Shown: in pieces, positions 12,694 through 22,662 of the stretch | How positions within the stretch are numbered: the first letter of the stretch is position 1 | Layout of the letters: the number at the start of each line of letters is the position of its first letter | Origin: a virus | Virus record (IMG/VR): IMGVR_UViG_3300032241_002034 | Location: 1 to 50,124 of that record | DNA length: 50,124 nucleotides | Reading direction: 5' to 3' (one strand) | Translations under genes and position numbers: made by a program | Notes under the pieces: generated by a model | Told to the model about the DNA's origin: nothing | Database searches by the model: none | The model's input: only the letters and a program-made list of their open reading frames with translations

Positions 12694-14721
12694 TTACATG
12701 TCTTCAAATTCATCGTTATAATTTTCTATAACCATGACATCTACTTTAATAGGATTAGTAATATTAAATACTTCTTTTTCAGGAAAAAGACTTAATTTAG
12801 TTATAAAATTTGGATTAAAATACAAATCAGCATCACCTGCTTTAGCTCTCATTACTGCTGGTTCTCCTCCATTACGCTCTGCTGTAGATACAGCAAAAGT
12901 AGCTGCAGTATAGTAATCTGTACTCCATGATTGTACTTTACGCTTGGAAGAATATTCTTGATTTAATATTATTTCACCTTGTTTATAAAATTCAGTTTCG
13001 GAACCCTTTAATAATTTTTGTAAATTTGATTTACTTATTGCTGTTCCTCTGTAAATATAACTTGTATCTGGTATTTTAGGATCTCCTATTTCTGGATATT
13101 CTCGTTTTATTTGTTTAAAAATAGGAATATATGAGTCTAAATTAATATTACTATACGTTGATGATTCAGAGTTAACATATTTTTTTAAAGTATTAAATAA
13201 AGCTCTTTCAGCAGGAGTATCTATTTCTTTTTCACTATCATACCATTTTATATCAACTCCAGATTCTTTATCCCCAAAAAGGTAATTCCCGAATTTTTTT
13301 TTTGCCTCGTAAATTTCAGTATGCTGTTGACCGAATTTTCTTAATAATACACCCGCTTGAGCGTTTGCTTCATTTTCAATTTCAGATCCAGTTTCACCAC
13401 TTCCTTGCTCAATTCTACCTTCTTCATCTTGTTTACGATGTACTAATTCATGTGCTAATGTTCTTAACGCATCAGCCATTACTCTATGACCAAAATATAG
13501 CCAAATTGACTTACTATTTGGATCAAAATATCCAAATGTATGTAATTCTTTAGCTTTTTCAGCATCATGAGATATAGTTAATTTAGGTACAGATTTTAAA
13601 CCTAATTCTTTAATAGCAAACTTTAAAAAAGCATGTATGGTATTATTTTGGTCTTTATGTAGTTTACCTTCAGTAATTGGCGGTGAAATACTACCATGCA
13701 TTTTCATATTAATATTACCTTGTAATACAGTAGGAATAGAACCTAATGCTCGGTAAATAGATAATATTACCTCACCTCCAACTAACCAATAACCTTGATT
13801 GTAATTTAATACTAAAGGTAAAGGAATATCATCACCGGATTTAATAGCATCAATATATGGTTTAGGATCAATACCTAATTTTAATGAATGTTGAATAGCA
13901 TCATCTAATGTTTTCATTTTATATGACTTACTATTCTGTAAGTTTTCCCACATTTCATCTGATAATACTACTTCATTTCCTGTTTCAAAAGCATATTGAA
14001 TGTCTGGTATAGGTATATTAAATGTTTCAGATGTTTTTTCAATCTTAGGCATTGCTTTTAATACTAAATCTTGATAAGGGCTAGTACTAGCTTCAGGTTG
14101 AGATTCATGCATTGAACCAGCTGTGTAATTCATGTATCTAGGATCTATCTTAGGTAATTCAGGTTGAATTTGTTTATCAATAGCAGCTAAAAAATCTATT
14201 ATAGAAATGCCTTCAGGAACATGTTCTTCAAAGTCTTTATCTTTATTATTTATAGCATTTTTTAAACCAAGATCATGTGCATCTTCTAATTCACTAGCGT
14301 CCATTAATTCTACGTTAGGATATTTATGCATACCTTTATAACGTTCCATTTCACCTCTACTTAAAGCAATAATGAATTTATCTTTTGGATTTGATCTTAC
14401 AATATCTAATATTTCAATCATAGGAGTACTACTTGAAATATCTACTTCGATATCTTTAGGTAATAAATCCTTATATAGATTCCAAACATTAACACTATGG
14501 TCAGCGGTAACACCGCCTTGACTATCAGGAGTTATTAATACTACTACTTGATTTGCTTTTTCACCTAATTCTCTAGCAACCTCAAAATTGCCTTTATGAG
14601 GTGGTTTATTTGTTGTTGGATATATCCCCACAACAGAACGTGCTTCTGTTTCTAGTAAAGTTGAAGCTAAGTATTTACCTAATTTTAGGCCAAGTGAGTC
14701 CACTTTATTCATAATTGCCAA
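12694..14721 (-). CDS. Multidomain protein: nucleotidylyltransferase-like, ParB-like, HExxH peptidase and ADP-ribosyltransferase
   Basis: A 675-residue protein with four visible parts. Residues 1-24 are a tag ending T-L-L-E. Residues about 29-150 resemble nucleotidylyltransferases (GIYPTTNKPPHKGN, a variant of HxGH). Residues about 297-335 (PLPLVLNYNQGYWLVGG) resemble ParB/Srx-like proteins. Residues 420-455 contain the zinc peptidase motif H424-E-L-V-H428 with a candidate third ligand near E447-E451. Residues about 550-655 fit an R-S-E ADP-ribosyltransferase: YRGT with R558, SWST at 598-601, and E648-K-E650. T4 Alt is likewise a packaged, tag-bearing ADP-ribosyltransferase that modifies host RNA polymerase. 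Packaging and injection are inference. Confidence 0.8.
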   Translation of the reverse strand: MAIMNKVDSLGLKLGKYLASTLLETEARSVVGIYPTTNKPPHKGNFEVARELGEKANQVVVLITPDSQGGVTADHSVNVWNLYKDLLPKDIEVDISSSTPMIEILDIVRSNPKDKFIIALSRGEMERYKGMHKYPNVELMDASELEDAHDLGLKNAINNKDKDFEEHVPEGISIIDFLAAIDKQIQPELPKIDPRYMNYTAGSMHESQPEASTSPYQDLVLKAMPKIEKTSETFNIPIPDIQYAFETGNEVVLSDEMWENLQNSKSYKMKTLDDAIQHSLKLGIDPKPYIDAIKSGDDIPLPLVLNYNQGYWLVGGEVILSIYRALGSIPTVLQGNINMKMHGSISPPITEGKLHKDQNNTIHAFLKFAIKELGLKSVPKLTISHDAEKAKELHTFGYFDPNSKSIWLYFGHRVMADALRTLAHELVHRKQDEEGRIEQGSGETGSEIENEANAQAGVLLRKFGQQHTEIYEAKKKFGNYLFGDKESGVDIKWYDSEKEIDTPAERALFNTLKKYVNSESSTYSNINLDSYIPIFKQIKREYPEIGDPKIPDTSYIYRGTAISKSNLQKLLKGSETEFYKQGEIILNQEYSSKRKVQSWSTDYYTAATFAVSTAERNGGEPAVMRAKAGDADLYFNPNFITKLSLFPEKEVFNITNPIKVDVMVIENYNDEFEDM

Positions 14722-14747: not shown

Positions 14748-15536
14748 CTATGCTAGTTTAATTGATGTTGGCAACGATTCAGTATGTGGTTTAGCGTCAG
14801 GATTTTCAAGTTTGTATATTTCTTGTACATTTACAAACATCTTCATTGAATCTTCAATAGATTTATCAAATGTTTTTAATTGCCATCCTTCACCTTGTAC
14901 TTTTTTACCCGTTTTGTCAATGCCGCGTGTAGCTGCTTTTAACCAAATAATACCAGTCTTGGTAATTTTTTCATCATGTGTTTCGTTCCATGCCTCAGCG
15001 TACGCAGCTAACTGTAACTCATAGCTAGTATGTAATGTGTTTGATGTTTTAATATCCATTAACCACAATTCATCTTTAAAACGTACAATTAAATCGGCTG
15101 TACCTGCATATTCATATTTGTCTGAAAATAAATGGTATTCAGTTGCTACTAACTCTGGTTTATTGTTATTCCAAAAGTCAGCAAACTTTAAAATCATCTT
15201 CCAAACATCTAAGTTATATTTAACATTTCCAAATTCATCAATCCAAGTAATATCTTCACCATTTAAAAATGCTTCAGCAGCATTGTGTACTTGTGTACCT
15301 TCACTAGCTGCTTTTTGAGCAATAATGTCACTATTATATCCTACATCTTTTAACCAAGAATGGAAAAATTGATTTTTAGGAAAATAGTTTAAAATACTAG
15401 ATACAGATGGATAAAATTTTCCATTGCGTTGGTAGAAACGTTGATCCAATACGTTTATTTGTTTGTTATCATCACTGTATTGTACAATACGTTTGATTTT
15501 GGGATCTTTAATTACATTTGTGTTTTTATCTATCAT
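14748..15536 (-). CDS. PD-(D/E)XK nuclease (RecB/Cas4-like)
   Basis: A 262-residue nuclease. The core is YAGTADLIV with D148, LMDIKTSN with D161 and K163, and QLAAYAEAW with Q175, preceded by TEYHLF with E133. This is the metal-binding signature of RecB/Cas4/lambda-exonuclease-type PD-(D/E)XK enzymes. It probably resects or trims phage DNA during recombination-dependent replication. Its ATG overlaps the primase stop (ATGA), so the two are translated together. Confidence 0.85.
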   Translation of the reverse strand: MIDKNTNVIKDPKIKRIVQYSDDNKQINVLDQRFYQRNGKFYPSVSSILNYFPKNQFFHSWLKDVGYNSDIIAQKAASEGTQVHNAAEAFLNGEDITWIDEFGNVKYNLDVWKMILKFADFWNNNKPELVATEYHLFSDKYEYAGTADLIVRFKDELWLMDIKTSNTLHTSYELQLAAYAEAWNETHDEKITKTGIIWLKAATRGIDKTGKKVQGEGWQLKTFDKSIEDSMKMFVNVQEIYKLENPDAKPHTESLPTSIKLA

Positions 15537-19686: not shown

Positions 19687-22662
19687 TTAACATTGTGTTG
19701 CTCTTAAACTCATAGCACCGTTAGAAGCTATTGTCCAAGTATCAGCATTAGATGTTGTAGCTAACACATATCTAGGACCTACTATTACGCTACCATCTGA
19801 GTTTCTAGCTATCATACCTGCTGAGAAATTATTTCCATTAGTTACAAAAGTAGAATGATCTGCAGAACTTAAATATATGTTAGTAGTACCTGTTACACTA
19901 CATGATGTTATATTACTTAATGTATTAGCAGCATTACTAAATGTTACTGGAGGTAATGTTGTTGTTGAAGTTGTTGTTGTAGCAGGACAAGTTGTTTGAC
20001 TAGCTAAAGTACCCTCGCTGTCTGTTACTACATAAACTACACCATTTCCTGAGTAATAGTAGTCTCCATTATTTACAGCTATAAAGTTAGTTGTGTCTGT
20101 ATAGAATTTAGTAACACCATTTACAAGTGATCCTTGATAGAATATGTTTGTTGGAGTTCCACTGTAACAAGCGTTACCTGGAGTGTTACCAAATTTTACA
20201 CTTAAATCTGTCCAAGCCATTGTTGTTGTAGTAGTTGTTGTACTAGTAGTAGTTGTTGTAGTTGCAGGACAAGCAGCATAAGTACCTGATTGAACTGTAG
20301 CTACGCCTGTAACAACGTTAACTTCCCAAGTATATCCACCATTAGAAATATAAATTAATCCGCTATGAGCCATTAAATCACCACCTGTAAATTGAGTACA
20401 GTTAATAAACAAGTTAGCATTACCCTGAATTGTACTAGTAGTAGATGGAGAGTAACAAGCTTGTGATGGTGTACTACCATATCCTACTGTATAAGGATAA
20501 GTCGGAGCTGCTGTAGTAGTTGTAGTAGTTGTTAGACTAGCACAAGTACCACCTGAAGCTATTACACCAGATCCACCACTTACAAGGTAATAATTTGTAC
20601 CATCTGAATAGTAGCCATTAATAGCTGGAGTTGATAAATTACTGTTTTGATATAAAGCATTTCCTACTTGTAAAGTTGCTCCATGAGTCATGTAATAAGT
20701 TACATTGACTGTAGCTGCACAAGCTCCTAATCCAGTAGCGTTTTCAGCTGTTAAAGTATACATAGCAGGCGCTAACGTAGTAGTAGTAGTTGTAGTACTA
20801 GTAGTCGTTGTTGGAGCAGCTGTTGTTGTAGTTGTAGTAGTTGGTGCTAAAGTAGTCGTTGTCGTAGACGACCCTGTATAAGCAGTTGTTGTTGTAGTTG
20901 TGGTACTAGTTGTCGTAGTATTAACCGAATAGGGTATATTAAAATTATAACAAGTGTAATGTTGTCCTGCTCCACCTACATTAGGGAATTGCATATCTGG
21001 ATATGATACAGAAGGTGTAACTTGTGTTGCTGTTAATGCTACAAAGTCATAAGTGAATATAAGTCCAGCTTGTGTAATTCCATAAATGTTTGTTCCATCA
21101 TAGTATAACGCATTAGGAATTTGGTATGATGACGATAAAGTTATCTGTGCTAATAATGTTGTTCCTGAATACAATTGAATATTACCGTATAGTGTATCAG
21201 GCTTAGTATAAGCAATAACAGTTTGACTATTACTTGTATTATATAGAATAGATGTGATGAATGAGTTATCACTAATACTCATATATGGTGTAGCAATGTG
21301 TGTAGTTAAATTATACTCATAAATATCTGATACAAGACTTGGTGAAACACCTACACTATTAACAACAAATAATGTGTTACTATCTTTAAATGCTATACCA
21401 TATCCAGCATTATTACTTGGGTATGTATTATCCCAAATTGTAAATTGTGAGTCATATGTCAATGAGAATGGAGATGTTGTATAGTTGTATACATTATAGT
21501 TTCCACAATGATCTACAATATACATTTTAGAACCATCCATTGCAATTTGTCCAGACACACATCCCGCATGAAGAGAAGCTAGTTCTATATTTGTATGCGT
21601 TACAGAATCATATAATGATAATTTGTTTGTAGTTTCACGAGCTAAAAATATAGAACAATCTGGAGCTATAATAGTTGTTGTACTAGTAGTTGTGCTAGTA
21701 GTTGTAGTGTAAACAACAGCACTACCTGCTAATGCACAGTTTGCAACTGTTGTAGTTGTTGTTGTAGTAGAAGTTGTAGGTGCATTAACAACTACAAATA
21801 CATTTCCATAATTGCTAGTTAAAACACATCCACTTCCACAAGTACTAGTTACTGTGTATTGAACATTGTAATTTCCAGATGAAGTAGTATTTAAAGTAAT
21901 AGTACCATTTGAATTTACAGTATAATATTGAGCATTACTACCTGATAATACAACCGATCCTGTATTTAATGTACAAGATCTAGCTACATCATTAGATAAA
22001 ATATTAATAGTTTTTGGGCTATCTGTTGTAAGAAAACTAGCTGTATTATTATAAGCTAAAGGAGGTAAAGGAAACAAAGGTTGGTAATCACTATTAGTAA
22101 GTACAACTATTCCGTGAGCATAATAAATATTACCTACAAATGTTGGAATACCAGCATAATCGTAGATATTTCCTTGTCCATCATCTTTTATATTAAAAGC
22201 AGAAGATGATAAATTAAAACTATTAGGTAATAATTTAGACCCATAAACAGATCTATTTACCTCTAATACTAAAATAGAAGCATTTGCCCCTGTAGGGAAG
22301 TTTTGGACTAAATTAGGATTAGTATTATAATTAAAATAAGAGCCAGTTGGGCGTTGTTGAGAAGCAGATACATAAGTATCTACATTAAACATTATAGACC
22401 CCGTGTTTAATAAACTACCACTAAATGATTGATAAAACATATGATTAATAGAATCATATACTAATCTTTCATATTGACCATAAGTTTTAGGATCGATAGA
22501 TACATCGTTAGATACAAAAGTACCTGTTATGTAGGTACCTTTATATACGTTGAAGTAGCTATCTCCTCCATTAAAACAAGTATACGGTAGGTTCCAATGT
22601 TTGTTTGCAACATATGGAACTGTCGTAACATCGGGTTTAAATAATTTTTTGAACGCTGACAT
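19687..22662 (-). CDS. Modular tail adhesin with poly-threonine linkers
   Basis: A 991-residue virion protein. Residues about 1-200 are related to the 22666-23643 protein (shared YGQY-x-x-LV and R-S-x-Y motifs) and should attach it to the tail. Residues about 200-292 are a beta-sandwich. Residues about 333-575 look like a beta-propeller (KMYIVDHCGNYNVYNY, DSNTLFVVNSVG and similar blades). Four cysteine-containing modules follow (about 634-707, 721-798, 815-893, 905-991). Thr-rich linkers (294-305, 318-330, 582-631, 710-720, 800-814, 895-903) separate the parts. Probably a receptor-binding fibre; the exact folds are inference. Confidence 0.75.
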   Translation of the reverse strand: MSAFKKLFKPDVTTVPYVANKHWNLPYTCFNGGDSYFNVYKGTYITGTFVSNDVSIDPKTYGQYERLVYDSINHMFYQSFSGSLLNTGSIMFNVDTYVSASQQRPTGSYFNYNTNPNLVQNFPTGANASILVLEVNRSVYGSKLLPNSFNLSSSAFNIKDDGQGNIYDYAGIPTFVGNIYYAHGIVVLTNSDYQPLFPLPPLAYNNTASFLTTDSPKTINILSNDVARSCTLNTGSVVLSGSNAQYYTVNSNGTITLNTTSSGNYNVQYTVTSTCGSGCVLTSNYGNVFVVVNAPTTSTTTTTTTVANCALAGSAVVYTTTTSTTTSTTTIIAPDCSIFLARETTNKLSLYDSVTHTNIELASLHAGCVSGQIAMDGSKMYIVDHCGNYNVYNYTTSPFSLTYDSQFTIWDNTYPSNNAGYGIAFKDSNTLFVVNSVGVSPSLVSDIYEYNLTTHIATPYMSISDNSFITSILYNTSNSQTVIAYTKPDTLYGNIQLYSGTTLLAQITLSSSYQIPNALYYDGTNIYGITQAGLIFTYDFVALTATQVTPSVSYPDMQFPNVGGAGQHYTCYNFNIPYSVNTTTTSTTTTTTTAYTGSSTTTTTLAPTTTTTTTAAPTTTTSTTTTTTTLAPAMYTLTAENATGLGACAATVNVTYYMTHGATLQVGNALYQNSNLSTPAINGYYSDGTNYYLVSGGSGVIASGGTCASLTTTTTTTAAPTYPYTVGYGSTPSQACYSPSTTSTIQGNANLFINCTQFTGGDLMAHSGLIYISNGGYTWEVNVVTGVATVQSGTYAACPATTTTTTSTTTTTTTMAWTDLSVKFGNTPGNACYSGTPTNIFYQGSLVNGVTKFYTDTTNFIAVNNGDYYYSGNGVVYVVTDSEGTLASQTTCPATTTTSTTTLPPVTFSNAANTLSNITSCSVTGTTNIYLSSADHSTFVTNGNNFSAGMIARNSDGSVIVGPRYVLATTSNADTWTIASNGAMSLRATQC
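20770..20919 (-). repeat. Longest threonine-codon tract
   Basis: About 150 bases of Thr triplets with Ala-Pro interruptions, coding for residues 582-631 of the adhesin. Similar shorter tracts recur through the same gene. Confidence 0.7.

Follow-up and report, generated by a model that had tools for sequence, protein, structure and literature searches.

Results

The locus and its family

We analysed a stretch of viral DNA of 50,124 nucleotides (IMG/VR record IMGVR_UViG_3300032241_002034), hereafter the window, which carries a gene for a mosaic protein at positions 12694-14721. The plus strand is full of stops across this interval, and the open reading frame (ORF) is read on the minus strand. 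It has the predicted length of 675 codons when counted from a TTG, although an ATG at position 14712 is the likelier start and would give a protein of 672 amino acids beginning MNKVDSLGLKLGKYLASTLLE. From the N-terminus, the chain is ordered as tag, nucleotidylyltransferase (NT), ParB-like part, HExxH...E peptidase and ADP-ribosyltransferase (ART). The original prediction of a multi-activity fusion was borne out, since an NT fold, a zincin and a probable ART lie on one chain, that is, at least two biochemically unrelated domains.

12694-14721, minus strand: complete ORF, 675 codons if begun at TTG; ATG 14712 is the likelier start
14650-14712, minus strand: tag at the N-terminus resembling capsid-targeting tags, MNKVDSLGLKLGKYLASTLLE, with LLE (residues 22-24) as its last residues
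14164-14640, minus strand: NT fold of the HIGH superfamily (PPAT/NadD-like), catalytically degenerate, recognised from an AlphaFold2 model and comparison with the Protein Data Bank (PDB)
13687-14103, minus strand: putative ParB/Srx-like domain with a degenerate box (GGEVIL for GGNTRL), not confirmed by Pfam
13306-13659, minus strand: zincin-like HExxH...E metallopeptidase, with HELVH at residues 424-428 and the third ligand E in ENEAN at 449-453
12697-13305, minus strand: probable ART domain of the R-S-E type, recognised from relatives, model and invariant residues

Against Pfam, PHROGs and NCBIfam, the protein had no match above the curated cut-offs, and only weak peptidase stretches were seen. 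A scan of viral contigs with the whole protein alone gave no match; alignments of the neighbouring exonuclease and of the peptidase domain succeeded instead, and scanning IMG/VR with these two yielded 160 loci. The genes on either side define the slot:

14748-15536, minus strand: exonuclease gene, the upstream neighbour that marks the slot, 54% identical to gp180 of Flavobacterium phage immuto
12213-12680, minus strand: 5'-nucleotidase gene, the downstream neighbour, in some relatives fused to the peptidase protein

Immuto gp182 is a colinear partial homologue of the window protein (33% of the query aligned, 31% identity) and occupies the same slot, in the order primase-exonuclease-...-5'-nucleotidase. 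Given this homologue and the identity of the exonucleases, we assign the window to an immuto-like phage. The head of immuto is of the T4 type, with gp20, a gp21-like protease and gp23 annotated, and the phage of the window, being immuto-like, is therefore expected to have such a head as well. The slot is a fixed one among immuto-like (T4-type, Flavobacterium) phages, and the protein that fills it in the window is a mosaic.

A map of this slot shows the peptidase as the constant element: nearly every complete slot examined has it, alone or fused, in many combinations, to Pol-beta, NT, ParB-like, 5'-nucleotidase, second HExxH or ART domains. The full order of NT, ParB-like part, peptidase and ART recurs in two other phages, at loci L170 (687 amino acids) and L171 (700 amino acids). 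Tagged single-domain versions also exist, namely an ART (L184), ParB-like proteins (L170 and L183) and, in cyanophages, a cytidylyltransferase and a peptidase. In Synechococcus phage S-SRM01 (L002:4563-5885), the cytidylyltransferase starts with MKNFHQFITEATSA, a tag like those of T4 internal proteins, and adjoins a stand-alone relative of the peptidase. At the other extreme of size, three chains of 1354-1766 amino acids (L137:2511-6575, L142:986-5389 and L156:2823-8123) combine NT and peptidase, with LxE before the modules, and end in a C-terminal GGAYGHMNHPFD...REKTDGQAL module that by eye resembles a ligase-like nucleotidyltransferase.

The probable ADP-ribosyltransferase domain

The catalytic layout that had been read from the sequence of the C-terminal third (R558, SWST at 598-601 and E648-K-E650) was found at those positions:

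13042-13053, minus strand: YRGT with the predicted catalytic Arg, R558, invariant in 13/13 sequences
12919-12930, minus strand: SWST with S598 and S600 (SxS motif), both Ser invariant in 13/13, unlike T601
12772-12780, minus strand: E648-K-E650 (ExE motif), both Glu invariant in 13/13

This part of the protein recurs in 12 other distinct sequences, and all 13 share the R-S-E arrangement of an Arg in strand 1, S-x-S and ExE. The most distant (L184:5653-6702, 349 amino acids) is 29% identical to the window ART, with motifs R, SFS and EAE. It bears its own tag, MIKLINLLKEA, and the ART is its only recognised domain, a layout like that of T4 Alt. Two short ORFs matching pieces of the ART lie upstream of the exonuclease at L015:1921-2583, a decayed copy at another site.

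A template-free AlphaFold2 model of the domain, built from nine sequences, had a mean predicted local distance difference test (pLDDT) score of 69.7. When this model was given a second look with VIA-align, all 50 of the 50 listed entries belonged to the ART/Tpt1 superfamily, including Tpt1/KptA, Arr, Rhs ARTs, the A chains of cholera, LT and pertussis toxins, Vis, PltA and DarT; the best match had Z 6.1 and a root-mean-square deviation of 2.9 over 82 residues. At the sequence level, the only PDB match of the window domain was an ART (E 0.8), and its sole Pfam match was FRG (E 0.5-0.67, weak), which is an ART-superfamily domain (PMC9503650). When the ART alignment was used as a profile against PDB sequences, no ART came up, and a peptide-pattern search of a genome collection found no cellular relatives. 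Because the VIA-align list is uniform, the residues are invariant and the weak sequence matches are to an ART and to FRG, the C-terminal domain is likely to be an ART, and the model gives the fold moderate support. The original prediction was to fall if structure prediction showed no ART or peptidase fold, or if catalytic residues varied among homologues; neither was found.

The domain could instead be an NADase or a modifier of nucleic acids, as the best structural neighbours include Tpt1/KptA and the small-molecule Arr enzymes. We regard this as unlikely, since R-SxS-ExE, with an ExE of the Arg type, is the protein mono-ART layout of the R-S-E clade (clade: PMC9503650).

N-terminal tag and junction sites

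The N-termini of the window protein and its relatives (MNLGQYLANILLE) match the tag pattern of T4 head proteins. The prohead protease of T4, gp21, cuts after L/I-x-E (PMC9026906). From T4 Alt, MELITE is removed by a cut after ITE, and Alt homologues carry LNE/LVE/LTE, so the tag is, as originally proposed, of the T4 Alt kind. In immuto, [L/I]xE occurs at residues 6-22 in 17/26 head-region genes but in 21/107 of the early ones (Fisher test, 1.3e-5), and LxE propeptides are found on its gp21-like protease, on gp23 and on core-region proteins. A gp21-like protease is present in immuto and in all eight of the eight long relatives; the record of the window ends before the head genes. The LLE at residues 22-24 and the protease of the relatives together have the make-up of a gp21-type substrate and its enzyme. 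We also considered a chance origin of the tag: counted over the window in full, [L/I]xE sites close to the N-terminus show only a mild excess (20/63 versus 10-13), and the signal is restricted to genes on the head side.

Further sites of this kind lie at the domain borders:

14104-14112, minus strand: MHE, residues 204-206, in a linker disordered in the model; relatives have L/I/V-x-E
13669-13677, minus strand: ITE, residues 349-351, in a disordered linker
13306-13314, minus strand: IYE, residues 470-472, at the border of peptidase and ART

Among distinct junctions of the family, 55/64 contain [L/I]xE versus 26 expected when each junction was shuffled, and 0/2000 shuffles were as high. Ahead of the ParB-like part, a Glu is present in 16/16 sequences, as the sole fully conserved residue of a variable, gap-rich linker. 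Two junction sites of the window protein are in stretches that the model gives a pLDDT below 50. In relatives led by Pol-beta, a whole tag (ETNLGRYLASLILE) sits inside the chain. Within the closest subfamily, peptidases without a following domain end exactly at IYQ, and 11/12 ART-fused ones have IYE; as evidence of a cutting site, this contrast is only suggestive. Unfused peptidases elsewhere often end in IFE. The 5'-nucleotidase next to gp182 in immuto is also tagged (MGNLADLLLEES).

The peptidase and ParB-like domains

The peptidase, of about 115 residues, has HExxH in 116/116 distinct copies, followed by a later Glu that usually lies in a motif of the E-N-E-A-N type and aligns as the third ligand. 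This agrees with the HELVH noted earlier at residues 424-428 and with a zincin hub. Such a peptidase brings in the chief rival to a protein that is packaged and then cut by the prohead protease. Under the model of Iyer et al., the zincin itself would cut the chain, before packaging or after injection, and LxE would serve the N-terminal tag only. In polyvalent proteins, the zincin serves as the hub and is proposed to process them (PMC5512222), and it is the constant domain in our family too. On the other side, the enrichment of [L/I]xE and the invariant linker Glu fit the gp21 rule, and some copies of the peptidase stand alone, where they would have no partner in cis to process. Self-processing is accordingly, in our estimate, rather less probable than cutting by the prohead protease.

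The ParB-like part is well conserved and is modelled locally with a pLDDT of about 90. Pfam did not recognise it, and no structural match for it or for the peptidase was present among the matches listed, which the NT domain filled. The conserved Arg of the GGNTR-type box is absent: the window has GGEVIL, most relatives are similar, and the box is intact only in L060, L170 and the like. The label, which rests on the GG(NTR/EVI)L box and the shared domain, is therefore a plausible lead, and cleavage of nucleoside triphosphates or DNA by this copy is unlikely. Thus the ParB-like part of the original prediction stands as plausible, without the conserved Arg box or confirmation from Pfam. Two contigs that carry a degenerate-box fusion also encode a stand-alone tagged ParB-like protein (L170:1960-2343 and L183:9418-9924; MIKLIDILKE..., with GGNTR/SGNTR intact).

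The nucleotidylyltransferase domain

In an AlphaFold2 model of residues 4-485 (pLDDT 78.8), the NT part matched PPAT with Z 14.1 over 146 residues, the matches being of the PPAT/NadD type. Its catalytic motifs are lost:

14587-14598, minus strand: HKGN, residues 42-45, a degenerate HxGH whose second His is Asn

The downstream SxTxxR is gone as well. An HxGH-like site after an LLE tag had been proposed; the tag holds, the HxGH does not, and its degeneracy had gone unmentioned. Judged by these motifs, the NT of the window is catalytically dead, probably a relic or scaffold in this copy. At L170, HxGH has become YKGH and the Arg of the second motif is kept (EATNLR); at L171, it has become YNNQ and that Arg is lost. 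HxGH is therefore lost in 3/3 NT+ART proteins, each time by different changes, and kept in 53/53 distinct NTs without an ART (Fisher test, 3.6e-5), with the reservation that the NT+ART sample consists of three proteins and that the 53 intact sites include a distant RFQPFHKGH form and one TKGH. The remaining ART proteins carry no NT part. A search of the ART contigs for an NT elsewhere found none in 8/10, two of which are 155-167 kb long; the other two were L170 and L171. An active NT and an ART thus appear to be mutually exclusive in these sequences.

This bears on the idea in the original prediction that the NT makes nicotinamide adenine dinucleotide (NAD+) for consumption by the ART on the same chain. 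Both folds are indeed present. Since an active NT and an ART exclude each other, the idea is not supported; we reject it as highly improbable, HxGH having been destroyed in every NT+ART protein (HKGN, YKGH, YNNQ) and left intact in the others.

The same data weigh on a further alternative, in which the protein is an unpackaged enzyme of host or phage metabolism, produced inside the infected cell, its NT and the neighbouring 5'-nucleotidase working in nucleotide or NAD salvage and its ART acting late, like T4 ModA/ModB. The 5'-nucleotidase is adjacent and sometimes fused, intact NTs match adenylyltransferase models, and immuto gp182 is annotated as a NadR nicotinamide mononucleotide (NMN) adenylyltransferase. 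Such a role is nevertheless improbable, because NT+ART proteins have uniformly lost HxGH, no NT was found elsewhere in two long ART contigs, and the N-terminal tag is of the head-protein type, as is that of the immuto 5'-nucleotidase (MGNLADLLLEES).

Other tagged and repetitive proteins of the window

Small minus-strand genes whose products have tag-like N-termini (for example MIKLIDILKEE, MIKLSNLLSEA and MIKLMDMLVETE) lie between 560 and 11310 of the window (at 560, 4036, 6843, 8372, 8950, 9423, 10000 and 11035). This run, which belongs to the head side of the genome, probably encodes a battery of capsid-targeted internal proteins. Its gene at 560-1336 encodes a tagged protein of repeated ITSLPDNLxVGGxLxL units, resembling leucine-rich repeats. 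At 19687-22662, beside tail genes, a 991-amino-acid protein has Thr-rich TTSTTTTTTT stretches between repeated domains.

Discussion

We consider it probable that the window protein is a polyvalent effector packaged in the head of a T4-type, immuto-like phage and injected into the host. The capsid-targeting helix ending in LLE would take the chain into the prohead, where the gp21-like protease would remove the tag and probably also cut the [L/I]xE sites between domains, so that several separate parts would be delivered from one gene. After injection, the ART, as the presumed main active modifying enzyme, would ADP-ribosylate host targets with host NAD+; judging from T4 Alt, our first guess for such a target is a protein, for instance RNA polymerase. 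The zincin would either process the chain or attack host proteins. The Alt-like delivery logic of the original prediction gains support from the tag, and delivery in the virion would follow from it.

Several observations count against this reading. Confidence in the ART model is intermediate. Searched with Foldseek alone, the model had no significant match, and unrelated decarboxylases with TM about 0.1 headed the list; the fold assignment is for this reason based on VIA-align and residue conservation. Comparison of the T4 Alt family profile with the window ART by hhalign gave a weak result, with a probability of 11% and an E value of 0.0026 for one pair and with the Arg in register, so we do not assign the domain to the Alt family. 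Because the enrichment tests used sequences that are related to one another, their p-values are optimistic. Relatives led by Pol-beta lack a tag at the very start, the MHE of the window is a non-canonical L/I-x-E, and IYE may be just the conserved end of the peptidase domain.

A stronger form of the packaged-effector reading can be put forward tentatively. The chain would be a true polyprotein with swappable modules, cut within the capsid by the prohead protease at [L/I]xE between each domain, and a tailed phage would obtain several separate injected effectors from a single tagged precursor. In this lineage, acquisition of an active ART would have gone with inactivation or loss of the NT.

The concept of polyvalent proteins is already known (Iyer et al. 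2017, PMC5512222, to the extent drawn on here). As described in those sections, such proteins resemble ours in having unrelated enzyme domains on one chain, a zincin hub, a mosaic architecture and ART, ParB-like and Pol-beta nucleotidyltransferase partners, and injection with the DNA is predicted for them. The same sections place Pol-beta nucleotidyltransferases only in conjugative elements, whereas here they occur in phages, and they do not describe a T4-type tag with LxE sites at junctions. Genuine polyvalent proteins, they also state, contain no R-S-E ARTs.

T4 Alt, itself a head-packaged R-S-E ART, shares with the window protein an N-terminal tag ending in I/L-x-E, a C-terminal ART with R, S-x-S and ExE, and a T4-type prohead protease. 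The peptidase, NT and ParB-like parts of the window protein are all missing from Alt, whose gene adjoins baseplate/ligase genes. Immuto gp182 shares the slot and the NT and peptidase domains, but has Pol-beta, a second HExxH domain and intact NT motifs, and lacks the ART and the ParB-like part. P1 DdrB likewise joins a ParB-like domain to a zincin in a processed, head-packaged protein, according to the same portion of PMC5512222; the window protein, for which packaging is predicted, differs in the loss of the ParB Arg, the addition of ART and NT, and the T4-type head. Alt/VIP2 ARTs fused to MuF head domains have been reported (PMC9503650), which means that an R-S-E ART fused to a head domain is not in itself a novelty. 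New here are an R-S-E ART inside a polyvalent protein, the T4-type tag together with the junction sites, and the exclusion of an active NT by the ART.

Conclusions

The window protein would join two groups that are separate in the literature, the capsid-targeted, protease-trimmed effectors of the T4 style (Alt and the internal proteins) and the zincin-bearing polyvalent proteins. With its likely R-S-E ART, it would be an exception to the claim, made in the portion of PMC5512222 cited above, that genuine polyvalent proteins lack such domains. The unexpected exclusion between an active NT and an ART on one chain may point to a role linked to NAD that the two share or in which they compete.
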